A stretch of DNA of 62,698 nucleotides, from positions 1 to 62,698 of the forward strand of contig NVUJ01000011.1 in the NCBI GenBank assembly GCA_002733135.1, read 5' to 3'. This DNA is from Cycloclasticus sp. Its GTDB lineage: Bacteria > Pseudomonadota > Gammaproteobacteria > Methylococcales > Cycloclasticaceae. Positions 6,577 to 20,579 of the stretch are shown one piece after another. Position numbers and translations under genes: made by a program. The notes beneath the pieces are model-generated. The model was not told the DNA's origin and did no database searches. It worked only from the letters and a program-made list of their open reading frames with translations. Numbering within the stretch: the first letter of the stretch is position 1; the number at the start of each line of letters is the position of its first letter.

Positions 6577-6640
6577 AGGCTGGACGCTCTATGTTATTCA
6601 GCTAGAATTCATACGACACGAATAAACTATCTAATAGAAA

Positions 6641-6928
6641 ATGATACAACTTAATTTTATGCCGTATTTAAAAACATTGCTTTTCGTTATCCTGCTGAAC
6701 ATTTCAGTTTCTTTGCCCGTGTTAGCGGGCGATTCAGTTATTATTTTAGCTAAGGCTGATCATGTCACATTAGACGAAGCAGTTAACCGTGTAAAAAAAC
6801 AAAAAAAAGGCAAAGTGCTTGGCGCTGAAACCTTGCAAATAGATGGCCAACCTACACACGTTATTAAAGTTCTCACTAACGAGGGTCGAGTTAAAAAAAT
6901 TCGCCTTAAAAGCACCCCTAACAAATAA
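6641..6928 (+). CDS. Small exported PepSY-like protein
   Basis: A 95-residue protein with an N-terminal signal segment (about residues 8-29, LKTLLFVILLNISVSLPVLA) and a mature part holding one PepSY-type unit: TLDEAVNRVKKQKKGKVLGA followed by HVIKVLTNEGRVKKIRLK. A shorter start at 6659 (MPYLKT) would give a more standard signal peptide. It lies 23 bp before a PhoP-like regulator and is probably transcribed with it. PepSY proteins often sit beside such two-component systems and may tune the sensor's periplasmic domain, but that role is inferred. Confidence 0.7.
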   Translation: MIQLNFMPYLKTLLFVILLNISVSLPVLAGDSVIILAKADHVTLDEAVNRVKKQKKGKVLGAETLQIDGQPTHVIKVLTNEGRVKKIRLKSTPNK

Positions 6929-6951
6929 ATTTTTATTAAAAGGACTTATAT

Positions 6952-7635
6952 ATGCGAGCGCTTGTTGTTGAAGATGACCAAGCTATACAAGACCAATTGG
7001 TTGCTACCTTGACTAAAACTGGCTATGCAGTTGATGCGGCTGGTAATGGGGCAGAGGCGCTTTATTTGGGAACAGAATTCCCCATAGACGTTGCGATTAT
7101 TGACTTAGGCCTACCAGACATGTCTGGCATTGAAGTTATTAAAAAATTACGTGCCAAAGATATTAACTTTCCTATACTTATCCTTACCGCCAGAACTCGT
7201 TGGGAAGAAAAAGTCGAAGGACTTGAAATTGGTGCTGATGATTACTTAGTTAAACCATTTCATAACGAAGAATTGCTTGCGCGTTTAAATGCGCTAATAC
7301 GCCGTTCTGCTGGGTTAGCTAGTGCTGAATTAAGCTGTGGGCCAATAACTTTAGATACCAACGCACAGCAAGTCATTGTCGATAATGAACCGGTTGAATT
7401 GACGGCATACGAATATAAGATGCTGGAATATATGATGATGCACTCAGGACGAGTTATTTCCAAAACAGAAATAACGGAGCATATTTATGATCAAGATTTT
7501 GATAGAGATAGTAATGTCATAGAGGTGTTTATTGGTCGGTTACGAAAAAAATTAGATCCGAACGACCAACATAAACCCATTGAAACGCTTAGAGGAAGAG
7601 GTTATAGATTCTCCATTCCTCTAAATCAAGCGTAA
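6952..7635 (+). CDS. phoP: OmpR-family response regulator, PhoP-like
   Basis: A 227-residue regulator. The receiver domain (1-115) has the acidic pair EDD at 7-9, phospho-acceptor Asp51 and Lys101 in LVKPF. The winged-helix DNA-binding domain (about 128-222) ends in ETLRGRGYRF. It is followed 16 bp later by its sensor kinase. The neighbouring genes on the other strand, nudJ-mnmA-purB, are those that precede phoPQ in E. coli, which supports the PhoP name. QseB/PmrA-type regulators are close relatives and cannot be excluded. Targets are unknown; Mg2+ or membrane-stress response is the family expectation. Confidence 0.8.
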   Translation: MRALVVEDDQAIQDQLVATLTKTGYAVDAAGNGAEALYLGTEFPIDVAIIDLGLPDMSGIEVIKKLRAKDINFPILILTARTRWEEKVEGLEIGADDYLVKPFHNEELLARLNALIRRSAGLASAELSCGPITLDTNAQQVIVDNEPVELTAYEYKMLEYMMMHSGRVISKTEITEHIYDQDFDRDSNVIEVFIGRLRKKLDPNDQHKPIETLRGRGYRFSIPLNQA

Positions 7636-16910: not shown

Positions 16911-18509
16911 ATGTCATCTTATTCAAATGATATAAATGCTGTTTCAGCATTGGTAGAAGCCAAGGGTTCATCTTGGGATCCAATCAATCCTGAATCAATT
17001 GCACGTATGCGCGCGCAAAACAAATTCAAAACAGGTCTTGATGTAGCACAATACACAGCAGACGTCATGAACGCTGACATGGCTGTCTTTGATGCAGACA
17101 AAACTAAGTATACGCAATCACTTGGTTGCTGGCACGGTTTTATCGGCCAACAAAAAATGATCTCTATTAAGAAACATTTCAAGGGCAAAACAGATCGTCG
17201 TTACTTGTACCTTTCAGGTTGGATGGTGGCTGCGTTACGTTCAGACTTTGGGCCTTTACCTGATCAGTCTATGCACGAAAAAACATCTGTTGCTTCTTTG
17301 ATTGAAGAACTATACACATTCCTACGTCAAGCGGATGCTCGTGAACTGGGCGGTTTATTCCGTGACTTGGATGCGGCTCGTGAAGCTGGCGACGATGTTG
17401 CTGCAAAACGCGTTCAAGATTCCATTGATAACCACGTAACACACGTTGTGCCAATTATTGCTGACATCGACGCGGGCTTTGGTAACGCTGAAGCAACTTA
17501 CATCATGGCTAAGCAAATGATTGAAGCGGGTGCTTGTGCACTACAAATCGAAAACCAAGTCGCTGATGAAAAGCAATGTGGTCACCAAGATGGTAAAGTA
17601 ACCGTGCCTCATGCTGACTTCCATTCTAAAATCCGCGCATTACGCCATGCATTCCTAGAGCTAGGTATCGACAACGGTATTATCGTGTCACGTACTGACT
17701 CTGAAGGCGCTGGCCTGACTAAAGAAATCGCTGTTGTTAAAGAGCCTGGCGATCAAGGCGATCGTTACAACTCTTTCCTAGACGTCGAAGAAATTGACGT
17801 AGCTGACATGGCTGAAGGCGACGTATTCTTTAACCGTGATGGCAAATTGGTTCGTCCTAAGCGTTTACCTTCTGGTTTGTACCAGTTCCGTCAAGGCACA
17901 GGTGTAGAGCGTTGTGTCTTCGATTCTATTGAAGCGATTAAAGCCGGTGCCGACCTTCTTTGGATTGAGACGGCTACGCCAAGCGTTGCTGACATCGCTG
18001 AGATGATGAACGAAGTGCGTAAAGAGATTCCAGATGCGAAGCTGGTTTACAACAACAGCCCATCATTCAACTGGACGCTAAACTTCCGTCAACAAGCGTT
18101 TGACGCAATGATTGCCGCTGGTGAAGATGTTTCTGCATACGATCGTGCTGGTCTAATGAGTGCTGAATACGACGAAACTGACTTGGCTCATGCTGCTGAT
18201 GAAAAAATCCGCACATTCCAAGCTGATTCTGCTCGTGAAGCGAATATTTTCCATCACTTGATTACGCTACCTACTTACCATACAGCTGCCTTATCTACTG
18301 ACAACCTAGCTAAAGAGTACTTTGGTGATGCAGGTATGCTTGGCTATGTTGCTGGCGTACAGCGTAAAGAAATCCGGCAAGGAATTGCCTGTGTTAAACA
18401 TCAAAACATGTCGGGTTCAGACATGGGTGATGATCACAAAGAATACTTTGCTGGTGAAAACGCGCTTAAAGCCGGTGGTGCGAAGAATACGTCTAACCAG
18501 TTCTCTTAA
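16911..18509 (+). CDS. aceA: Isocitrate lyase (long, Pseudomonas-type)
   Basis: A 532-residue enzyme that splits isocitrate to succinate and glyoxylate, the first step of the shunt. The catalytic Cys223 lies in DEKQCGHQDGK; the common KKCGH motif reads KQCGH here, as is usual in the long Pseudomonas-type subfamily of about 530 residues. The substrate motif NNSPSFNW is present. A strong AGGAG site lies 8 bp before the ATG. The 99-bp gap after aceB includes a TTTACA-17-TTAACT sequence that could give aceA its own promoter. A strong terminator follows at 18611-18646. Confidence 0.97.
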   Translation: MSSYSNDINAVSALVEAKGSSWDPINPESIARMRAQNKFKTGLDVAQYTADVMNADMAVFDADKTKYTQSLGCWHGFIGQQKMISIKKHFKGKTDRRYLYLSGWMVAALRSDFGPLPDQSMHEKTSVASLIEELYTFLRQADARELGGLFRDLDAAREAGDDVAAKRVQDSIDNHVTHVVPIIADIDAGFGNAEATYIMAKQMIEAGACALQIENQVADEKQCGHQDGKVTVPHADFHSKIRALRHAFLELGIDNGIIVSRTDSEGAGLTKEIAVVKEPGDQGDRYNSFLDVEEIDVADMAEGDVFFNRDGKLVRPKRLPSGLYQFRQGTGVERCVFDSIEAIKAGADLLWIETATPSVADIAEMMNEVRKEIPDAKLVYNNSPSFNWTLNFRQQAFDAMIAAGEDVSAYDRAGLMSAEYDETDLAHAADEKIRTFQADSAREANIFHHLITLPTYHTAALSTDNLAKEYFGDAGMLGYVAGVQRKEIRQGIACVKHQNMSGSDMGDDHKEYFAGENALKAGGAKNTSNQFS

Positions 18510-18610: not shown

Positions 18611-18646
18611 AAAAAGGCGACATCCTTAATTGAATGTCGCCTTTTT
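18611..18646 (+). terminator. Rho-independent terminator of aceA
   Basis: A 13-bp perfect stem (AAAAAGGCGACAT at 18611-18623 with ATGTCGCCTTTTT at 18634-18646), a 10-nt loop and a closing U run. It ends 40 bp before the next gene. Confidence 0.9.
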
Positions 18647-18685: not shown

Positions 18686-19249
18686 ATGAGTGATATTCCA
18701 AACTATCTACAGGACGCAACAGAGCTATTAACAAAAGACGGCTTTGCCACGGGTGATGTTTGGTATCACGGCACATCTTTTGCCTTAGTAAGCTCCATTC
18801 AGTCATATGGCCTAAAGCGTTCAGGTGATAGGGCAATGAAGCTAGCAGCGAAAAACACCATGGCAACGATTGGTAATGACTACACTGAATCTACCGAACC
18901 CGTCTTTTTAACGCAGAGCAAACAGCTTGCTTATTACTGGGCGCAGCAAGCCGTTCGCGAGCGCAGCGTTCGTTTTGAGGAAGAAGAAAGCCCCATCGTT
19001 TTTGCGGTTAAGTTACCCGAAGAACAAAACGCTATGGTTCGCCCTGATGTAGGCGCGGCAAGTTTATTGATGGTTAAAGAAGGTGAGGCGTACATGGCGT
19101 ATGTCGCTAAAATTTACCAAGATTGCAGCGCAGGGATACCCGATATTGATTTGATGAAGGCCGACCGTTTAGAGTATTTGAATAAGCTTGGCATGGCGTA
19201 TATCGACACAGATATTGATGCGGAGTTCGTATCACTCGTTTCTAGCTAA
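18686..19249 (+). CDS. Hypothetical protein with an ADP-ribosyltransferase-like N-terminal motif
   Basis: A 187-residue cytoplasmic protein with no signal or membrane segment. Residues 25-48 (VWYHGTSFALVSSIQSYGLK) match the YHGT strand-helix opening of the ART fold shared by Arr-type rifampin ADP-ribosyltransferases and KptA RNA 2'-phosphotransferases. A later EPVFLTQSKQLAYYWA segment fits the second core strand and helix. A catalytic Glu or Gln cannot be assigned with confidence. It lies between the aceA terminator and the orphan pmoC with its own spacing, so it may be expressed alone. A generic NAD-using enzyme is the best guess; the substrate is unknown. Confidence 0.5.
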   Translation: MSDIPNYLQDATELLTKDGFATGDVWYHGTSFALVSSIQSYGLKRSGDRAMKLAAKNTMATIGNDYTESTEPVFLTQSKQLAYYWAQQAVRERSVRFEEEESPIVFAVKLPEEQNAMVRPDVGAASLLMVKEGEAYMAYVAKIYQDCSAGIPDIDLMKADRLEYLNKLGMAYIDTDIDAEFVSLVSS

Positions 19250-19304
19250 ACATAAAGCATTCACACCATTTGTTTAAACGCCGGTTAGGTGTTAATTTGG
19301 GGCT

Positions 19305-20078
19305 ATGCCATCGACAGAAATGACTGAATCAATCAGTGACCCAACAAAGAACTTAATTAACGTTAAGGCGGTTATCTTTATTATTTTGGGAATACTGTGC
19401 GTAATGGTCGCTTGGAGGGTCTATCAGCAAGTGTTTGCTTGGGATATGGGCATGGATTCGTTTGAGCCCGAGTTTCAAACCTATTGGATGAATCTTCTGT
19501 ATGCGCAGTGGATTATCGAATTCCTGTTGGCGGCTTCAATCTGGGGCTATCTTTTAAAAACAAGGGACAAAGATGTTTTTAACATCTCACCTGCGGATGA
19601 ATTAAGACGCTACTTTACCTTGTTTCTATGGCTATTAAGCTATACATGGATCATCTATTGGGCAGCCAGTTTTTTTGCTGAACAAGATGCCTCTTGGCAC
19701 CAAGTTACCGTGCGAGATACCGACTTTACACCCAGTCATATCGTTTTATTTTACGGAACCTTTCCTGCTTATATCATTGCGGGTGTTTCTTCTTTTTTAT
19801 ATGCCCGTACACGTTTGCCACAGTTTGCCGATAATATTTCTATTCCCTTCATTATCCTTATTGTTGGTCCTTTTATGATACTGCCCAATGTTGGCTTAAA
19901 TGAATGGGGGCATACCTTTTGGTTTATGGAGGAATTGTTTACAGCACCGTTACACTGGGGTTTTGTCGTACTCGGTTGGTCAGCCTTAGCGATTGGAGGC
20001 CTAGGTATTCAAATAATGCTGAGGCTTATCGCACTATCTAGACTTAAAGGTGAGGTTGAGGTGCGGGAGAATATGTAG
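19305..20078 (+). CDS. pmoC: Orphan PmoC/AmoC-family subunit of copper membrane monooxygenase
   Basis: A 257-residue integral membrane protein with about six hydrophobic segments. It matches the C subunit of particulate methane/ammonia/short-alkane monooxygenase. Asp128, His132 and His145 (DASWH, then DTDFTPSH) correspond to the CuC ligands D156, H160 and H173 of Methylococcus PmoC at a constant offset of 28. Asn199, His203 and His217 (LNEWGH, then APLHW) correspond to N227, H231 and H245 of the CuD site at the same offset. The family usually occurs as pmoCAB or amoCAB, but no A or B gene lies nearby and a terminator follows. An ATG at 19320 is an alternative start. It may serve a distant hydrocarbon monooxygenase or a stress role like singleton amoC3. 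Confidence 0.92.
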   Translation: MPSTEMTESISDPTKNLINVKAVIFIILGILCVMVAWRVYQQVFAWDMGMDSFEPEFQTYWMNLLYAQWIIEFLLAASIWGYLLKTRDKDVFNISPADELRRYFTLFLWLLSYTWIIYWAASFFAEQDASWHQVTVRDTDFTPSHIVLFYGTFPAYIIAGVSSFLYARTRLPQFADNISIPFIILIVGPFMILPNVGLNEWGHTFWFMEELFTAPLHWGFVVLGWSALAIGGLGIQIMLRLIALSRLKGEVEVRENM

Positions 20079-20108
20079 TCGTATATTCTTACTTGAAAAA
20101 CAACTACT

Positions 20109-20137
20109 AAACCTCCATTAATATAGTGAGGTTTTTT
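20109..20137 (+). terminator. Rho-independent terminator of pmoC
   Basis: A 7-bp stem (AAACCTC at 20109-20115 with GAGGTTT at 20128-20134) runs into seven U residues, about 30 bp after the pmoC stop. It shows that pmoC ends its own transcription unit. Confidence 0.8.
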
Positions 20138-20252
20138 TATGCCGAATAATTGCTTACCTGTCTGAAGTCGTTTTATTTAATTCAGCTTTATAGAACAAGT
20201 AGCCTTTTTTTCTGTCAAAATAACGAATAACTAGAGATTGAATAAACGAACT

Positions 20253-20579
20253 ATGTCAGACAAACCTTTTGAACATGATGACGATGGAGGCCTCGCCGTA
20301 CAAGAGGCTAAGCCAAAGTTGCAAAAGCCACCTATGTATAAGGTGTTACTACTAAATGACGACTTTACCCCTATGGATTTTGTCGTGTCTATTTTGCAAA
20401 GTATCTTCTATAAAGAAAAAGAAGAGGCCGTTAGAATCACGATGAATGTCCATACCGCTGGCATTGGTGTGTGTGGCGTCTATACTAAGGAAGTAGCAGA
20501 AACAAAAGTACAACAGGTCATAACGTATGCACAAGAACATCAACACCCTTTGCAATGCACAATGGAACAAAGCGATTAA
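20253..20579 (+). CDS. clpS: ATP-dependent Clp protease adaptor ClpS
   Basis: A 108-residue adaptor that binds proteins with N-terminal Leu, Phe, Tyr or Trp and hands them to ClpAP. The core YKVLLLNDDFTPMDFVV (including the N-degron pocket NDD) and the helix near GIGVCGVYTKEVAE are present after a disordered acidic N-terminus. The ATG at 20253 was chosen over an in-frame TTG at 20238. It lies 12 bp before clpA and is surely co-transcribed with it. Its substrate-tagging enzymes Aat and Bpt are encoded just beyond, on the other strand. Confidence 0.96.
   Translation: MSDKPFEHDDDGGLAVQEAKPKLQKPPMYKVLLLNDDFTPMDFVVSILQSIFYKEKEEAVRITMNVHTAGIGVCGVYTKEVAETKVQQVITYAQEHQHPLQCTMEQSD

Follow-up and report, generated by a model that had tools for sequence, protein, structure and literature searches.

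Which role is left to the C subunit of a copper membrane monooxygenase if its gene stands apart from those for subunits A and B? This question is raised by pmoC2, a gene in a stretch of 62,698 nucleotides from Cycloclasticus sp. (the whole stretch analysed, in the following the window), which a first-pass annotation had described as an orphan. Lone C subunits are found in methanotrophs, nitrifiers and phages, and the reason for their retention is an open question. As far as excerpts of the respective papers go, xmoC is sometimes a singleton beside operon copies, with bacterial xmoAB always clustered with xmoC (Khadka et al., PMC6215863), and singleton pmoC genes have been reported for Methylococcus (PMC517821), Methylocystis (PMC3794950), Methylocaldum (PMC10974252; PMC11931723) and phages (PMC7674155, PMC9875498). 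According to the same excerpts pmoC3 of Methylococcus, the genes of Methylocystis SC2/Rockwell and types 2-5 of Methylocaldum resemble pmoC2 in that they encode a C subunit outside pmoCAB, the operon being present as well (PMC517821, PMC3794950, PMC10974252, PMC11931723). Cycloclasticus is described as a short-chain alkane user, and its particulate hydrocarbon monooxygenase is of the same enzyme family and from the same genus as pmoC2 (excerpt of PMC12510462). The excerpted parts of that work comprise a phylogeny of subunit a, subunits a and b in proteomes and a legend listing phmo (A, B, C, D); the terms 'subunit c', 'hmoc' and 'orphan' have zero occurrences in its main text. No title or opening abstract met in our literature search announced a stand-alone pmoC in Cycloclasticus.

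The gene under study is the following:

19305 to 20078, plus strand: pmoC2, stand-alone copper membrane monooxygenase C subunit of 257 amino acids with all six copper-ligand residues

Its 257 codons encode a full-length C subunit, in agreement with the first-pass annotation: PmoC2 matches the Pfam family AmoC (PF04896) over the full length (E 4.6e-107, 357.4 bits, cut-off 26.7), and both NCBIfam equivalog models (AmoC_BACT / CH4_NH3mon_ox_C) are matched above cut-off, likewise over the full length (NF041641, 365.9 bits, cut-off 319; TIGR03078, 338.9 bits, cut-off 280.6). Residues 23-235 align onto residues 51-263 of PmoC from M. capsulatus (1yew_C), and the constant offset of 28 that had been claimed for the ligands is borne out, i.e. 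all six positions, D128, H132, H145, N199, H203 and H217 in Methylococcus numbering, are matched. The site names CuC and CuD and this numbering are those that we assume for M. capsulatus PmoC. By its profile matches and by the six ligands (D, H, H, N, H, H) PmoC2 is a member of the PmoC/AmoC family, and its sequence matches in the PDB are 14 distinct C chains, every one from pMMO or AMO. In the alignment the six ligands are invariant in all five pmoC2 copies, in all eight Cycloclasticus operon copies and in 70 of 70 outside PmoC sequences, the latter being the query's own best matches and not a neutral sample (drawn from 80 loci, the first ten of which, Cycloclasticus or Piscirickettsiaceae, were excluded). 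Sixty-seven columns with a conservation of at least 97% in the outside PmoC were taken as family-invariant; the five pmoC2 copies retain 63-64 of them and the eight operon copies 62-64. The substitutions E68Q, W84L and R89K set all five pmoC2 copies apart from this core, and four of the five also deviate from it at position 98.

The earlier statement that pmoA and pmoB are missing is correct for the window, where family searches found neither gene, but fails for the genome. The source assembly (G000; 24 contigs, 1,756,937 bases, 83.31% complete), in which the window lies on contig C24, was searched with PmoC2 and yielded four places: PmoC2 itself, a PmoC at C4:57695-58459 with 76% identity, and two weak matches on C17. 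The PmoC on C4 opens a complete pmoC-pmoA-pmoB operon (G000:C4:57695-60752), with PmoA at C4:58727-59428 and PmoB at C4:59610-60752, each present once, and on C4 only, in family searches of the whole genome. Neither pmoA nor pmoB adjoins pmoC2 and no contig end cuts the locus, i.e. the gene stands alone; because a complete pmoCAB lies on C4 of the same genome, it is nevertheless not partnerless. With moderate confidence we regard pmoC2 as a stand-alone paralogue of the pmoC of the type-1 particulate hydrocarbon monooxygenase of Cycloclasticus and its product as an alternative C subunit for operon-encoded PmoA and PmoB.

The phylogeny favours this reading, and with it the earlier suggestion that the gene serves a distant hydrocarbon monooxygenase. 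In a tree of 35 PmoC rows (13 type-1 Cycloclasticus sequences, one of the second type, 16 of the 70 outside PmoC and five of the best 80 viral rows) the five pmoC2 sequences form one clade that is sister to the eight operon PmoC, with support values of 100/97 and 96/88; the same split is found in a 22-row set (87/71 and 91/95). Thus, pmoC2 is a Cycloclasticus-specific sister of operon pmoC. Recent duplication of today's operon gene was considered as the origin of pmoC2 and rejected, as the tree places pmoC2 outside all operon copies; forcing pmoC2 together with the operon copies of G000 and G007 gives a p-AU of 0.043, as does forcing it with all operon rows but that of G009, whereas with the G007 copy alone p-AU is 0.10, so that this last grouping is still conceivable. 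Among the carriers of pmoC2, G000 and G007 have the operon copy elsewhere in the genome, and type-1 pmoB is found in three of the five (G000, G007 and, as a 147-residue piece, G010); no type-1 operon was found in the assemblies of G006 and G002, which are 58% and 73% complete, respectively.

The first-pass annotation would have given up its reading if a closer, expressed pmoC in an operon were accompanied by missing transcription of this copy or by relaxed selection on it. The operon exists, the relaxed selection does not: dN/dS of pmoC2 is 0.054 (G000/G007), 0.083 (G006/G010), 0.059 (G006/G002) and 0.034 (G010/G002) in the four of ten pairs that could be scored, the other six being saturated, and 0.062-0.125 for operon PmoC in six of seven pairs with the G000 operon copy. 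Between pmoC2 and operon copies dS is saturated in all 12 printed pairs. Hence pmoC2 is under strong purifying selection (0.03-0.08 in the scorable pairs), and on account of selection and the intact core a pseudogene was rejected. Taken together, pmoC2 is an intact, selected C subunit from the same immediate lineage as operon PmoC, and it occupies one site in five genomes.

The close kinship to the operon copy and the retained invariants, as well as the 14 PDB matches that are all pMMO or AMO, make it improbable that PmoC2 acts alone or with partners other than PmoA and PmoB in a separate reaction, as might be thought from its being unlinked from A and B. Such a view has a counterpart in Methylocaldum, for which the authors propose non-methane roles of stand-alone PmoC: in the excerpted text its likely functions are unrelated to methane oxidation, the conclusions allow a part in high-affinity oxidation, and the CuD residues are reported to be kept (PMC11931723).

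The site of pmoC2 comprises the following features:

16911 to 18509, plus strand: presumed isocitrate lyase gene, which bounds the conserved block on the left
18611 to 18646, plus strand: terminator-type hairpin (-18.1 kcal/mol, z -4.94, 0/200 shuffles) that separates the isocitrate lyase gene from p187
18686 to 19249, plus strand: p187, a 187-codon gene directly 5' of pmoC2 on the same strand
19250 to 19304, plus strand: p187-pmoC2 spacer of 55 bases without the CTTGAAA 3' element; GGTG 13 bases 5' of the ATG
20092 to 20143, plus strand: 3' element CTTGAAAA with a weak hairpin and a T-run, located after pmoC2 in carriers and after p187 where pmoC2 is absent
20253 to 20579, plus strand: presumed clpS, right flank, with a conserved TTTCTGTCAAAAT upstream (ATG at 20253 read by eye; searches used 20271-20576)

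A gene which we take to be clpS is present in all 18 Cycloclasticus genomes. The order p187-pmoC2-clpS is found in five of them (G000, G007, G006, G010 and G002, five species-level genomes), and 11 have p187-clpS without pmoC; in G001 p187 is missing between the isocitrate lyase gene and clpS, and in G003 no p187 lies near clpS. G023, an outgroup from another genus of the same order, has isocitrate lyase-p187-clpS without pmoC. The suggested insertion into a conserved block thus fits the 11 genus genomes and the outgroup well. The Cycloclasticus case is a clean one, in that a single genus offers the site both with and without the gene, the operon gene is its sister, selection is strong and the neighbour is specific, and pmoC2 differs from the stand-alone pmoC of methanotrophs in its own lineage in the tree, its p187/clpS context and its host.

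The carriers are draft assemblies with 58-83% completeness, from which an assembly or binning artefact might be suspected. However, the layout is common to five genomes with p187 and clpS as flanks, although of p187 the G002 contig, which starts 263 bases before pmoC2, contains the tail only, and PmoC2 of the other carriers differs from that of the window by 7-24%, so that an artefact is scarcely credible. Absence from the clpS site in 13 of the 18 genomes may also be read as repeated loss of a functionless spare duplicate, and the carriers do not form a single clade (p-AU 0.083 with three genes; 0.036 with 11 genes in a quick locus tree; 0.065 for the carriers plus G016). This reading is very unlikely in view of the dN/dS of 0.034-0.083 and of the 11 empty spacers, in which tblastn found no pmoC relic beyond two chance-level pieces in G004 (9 and 21 residues, E 3.0 and 5.2). 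The distribution of the carriers fits an old duplication with losses, but equally an exchange of the gene among species.

A phage-borne or otherwise foreign origin is most improbable, too. Phage-encoded pmoC, like pmoC2, is a C subunit alone, and pmoC is found on many viral contigs (122 stretches in our search; see also the excerpt of PMC7674155). In contrast, pmoC2 lies on a bacterial contig and is Cycloclasticus-specific, the five viral rows of the tree, taken from the best 80, group with methanotroph PmoC and not with PmoC2, the top identity among the best 80 of the 122 viral stretches is 60%, the GC content of pmoC2 (0.419) matches that of operon pmoC (0.417) and of the window (0.429), and a search of 50,697 phage records gave no match. 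On these grounds a phage origin was rejected.

How might pmoC2 be expressed? All of the 16 spacers examined contain the motif CTTGA[AG]A, whereas shuffles would lead one to expect 0.73 (the pattern was picked after looking), and in many of the 16 rows it is followed by a hairpin-like stretch and a T-run. In all five carriers the element lies 3' of pmoC2, and in none between p187 and pmoC2; therefore pmoC2 is placed between p187 and the element that forms the 3' end of p187 elsewhere. Three hairpins were folded, i.e. the one at 20109-20137, the one at 18611-18646 and that of the empty site of G013. The first had been taken for a terminator of pmoC2's own; the hairpin exists, but with -7.5 kcal/mol and a z of -1.95 it is weak, 8 of 200 shuffles doing as well, and it is probably not pmoC2's own because its element follows p187 in genomes without pmoC2. 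The G013 hairpin is strong (z -6.52), and those of G006, G010 and G002 look weak by eye. Since the element behind pmoC2 stands after p187 in genomes lacking pmoC2, pmoC2 probably shares the transcript of p187, which is likely the first gene. A promoter of its own may lie in the 55-base spacer. A sigma-70 scan of the region gave an uninformative 8 sites (5.7 expected in shuffles). Upstream of clpS, TTTCTGTCAAAAT was read by eye in the 16 spacers, as would be expected for a separate unit.

As for translation, GAGG precedes the ATG in all eight operon copies but in none of the five pmoC2 copies; GGTG, 13 bases before the pmoC2 ATG, is a possible ribosome site. This difference suggests that the dose of pmoC2 differs from that of operon pmoC, and it could fit low or conditional translation, or little PmoC2 protein. 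If pmoC2 is transcribed with p187 it would be free of the control of the pmoCAB operon, and the membrane protein, judged by homology, would assemble with operon-encoded PmoA and PmoB. The outcome could be a variant enzyme, or the renewal of damaged C subunits, whenever p187 is on. AmoC3 of Nitrosomonas europaea may be a precedent for such a conditional C subunit: it is, like pmoC2, a divergent singleton, though of an ammonia monooxygenase, and is said to have a stress role (reportedly from work of Berube and Stahl in 2012). An accessory pmoC in Cycloclasticus is real and selected, i.e. a known oddity with a new example in another group, and offers a case that can be tested beyond methane and ammonia oxidation. 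Structural studies cited in PMC11931723 (excerpt) indicate that catalysis is centred on CuD of PmoC; substrate, affinity or stress tolerance could therefore be altered by a second PmoC under selection.

The neighbour p187 shows faint similarity to Tpt1/KptA, RNA 2'-phosphotransferases with an ADP-ribosyltransferase-type fold: all 15 members give matches with E values up to 1, the best being 0.0027, three of the 15 also match PARP in this range, and the window's p187, with 18.2 bits, stays below the Pfam gathering value of 26 and is thus outside the Tpt1/KptA family as defined there. Its AlphaFold model is of low confidence (pLDDT 61.7), which makes the best Foldseek match (E 0.018) a lead only, and PADLOC reported nothing for p187. 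Among 301 genomes of the order, p187 was found in 18, of which 16 are from Cycloclasticus and two from G023's genus.

Cycloclasticus contains further PmoC-like genes. In the window's genome two genes of a family termed d1 lie in tandem by smpB (L008:7576-8265 and 6610-7305; G000:C17:59621-61264) and score 70.7 and 42.9 bits against Pfam AmoC. Family d1 is present in ten of the 18 genus genomes, in all ten next to smpB. In ten d1 rows the first three ligand columns read D-Y-Q and the last three S-x-Y (seven rows), D-F-Y, N-G-Y or G-A-C; the second tandem copy reads D-Y-Q / S-A-Y. The dN/dS is 0.043-0.229 in 32/45 usable pairs, in a set that includes the tandem copy and leaves out the G008 copy, which has an internal TAG. 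Ten of the 11 genomes with type-1 PmoC have d1 and none of the seven others (Fisher p 0.00025, not corrected for kinship), and among the 301 genomes of the order matches below E 1e-17 are confined to Cycloclasticus and G023/G029. The AlphaFold model of d1 has low confidence (pLDDT 63.9), so that its fold matches are leads only; the best ones in the PDB are C chains of pMMO/AMO (E 5e-4 at best, TM about 0.45, rmsd about 11). A second PmoC-like family, d3, is found in six of the 18 genomes (L257, L258, L259, L263, L264, L265), has D-H and then R or S in the first three ligand columns, and lies behind a presumed short-chain dehydrogenase gene in the three loci inspected (L257, L259, L265).

PmoC2 might instead be a factor for assembly, quality control or copper handling outside the finished enzyme. 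The ligand-poor PmoC-like proteins, which are under purifying selection and track type-1 PmoC, could be taken to speak for this, as could two precedents from excerpted papers: a pmoC of Methylocystis that is monocistronic, adjoins ftsH and has been interpreted, by way of speculation, as a sensor of folding (PMC3794950), and AmoC, thought to act as a chaperone that stabilises AMO subunits under stress (PMC5960693). Yet neither the ligands nor the invariant core have been lost from pmoC2, whereas the ligand-poor proteins keep 15-19 of the 67 positions, and we consider such a factor unlikely. A link to ClpSA proteolysis, modelled on the ftsH precedent, was not retained: p187 and clpS are also neighbours where pmoC2 is missing, and their neighbourhood hence provides no evidence for it.

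Returning to PmoC2 as an alternative C subunit, we may speculate that it is one of a set, consisting of operon PmoC, PmoC2 as liganded exchange subunit coupled to the ADP-ribosyltransferase-like p187, and the ligand-depleted pseudo-subunits d1 and d3, in which the C-type protein in the complex sets the activity. This extension is doubtful; if it were true, d1 (by smpB) and d3 (behind the dehydrogenase gene) would be regulatory or assembly pseudo-subunits.

Some observations concern the operons and d1 in other genomes. The operon on C4 continues with a D-like gene, a multicopper oxidase gene and a cupredoxin-like gene; for the D-like gene, as we presume the gene after pmoB to be, no Pfam family was over cut-off. 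Downstream of the operon, L007:10880-15299 contains D-like, multicopper oxidase, cupredoxin-like, DedA-like and methyltransferase-like genes (the D-like, DedA-like and methyltransferase-like names being our presumption), and genes of this type follow pmoB in seven of the eight genus genomes with a type-1 operon that were examined, but were not seen in G012 within the stretch taken. The operon of the window's genome lies in a neighbourhood that we take to be guaA-tadA-mltF, where the operon of G023 is also located. G017 has a d1 relic by smpB (L294; G017:C35:1319-1456; 46 residues aligned) and no pmoA/pmoB match, which suggests that its lineage once had the enzyme. In two presumed sponge symbionts, G015 (L059/L061) and G016 (L060/L062), pmoC does not share a contig with pmoAB, and pmoA is preceded by a sequence read by eye as putative transposase/integrase, which in G015 also follows pmoC at the contig end. 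The unlinking may be due to a contig mis-join; if it is not an assembly effect, it would contradict the 'always clustered' of the excerpt of PMC6215863. Finally, an operon of the second type in G009 (L293, on C14) has two C genes in succession before A and B.
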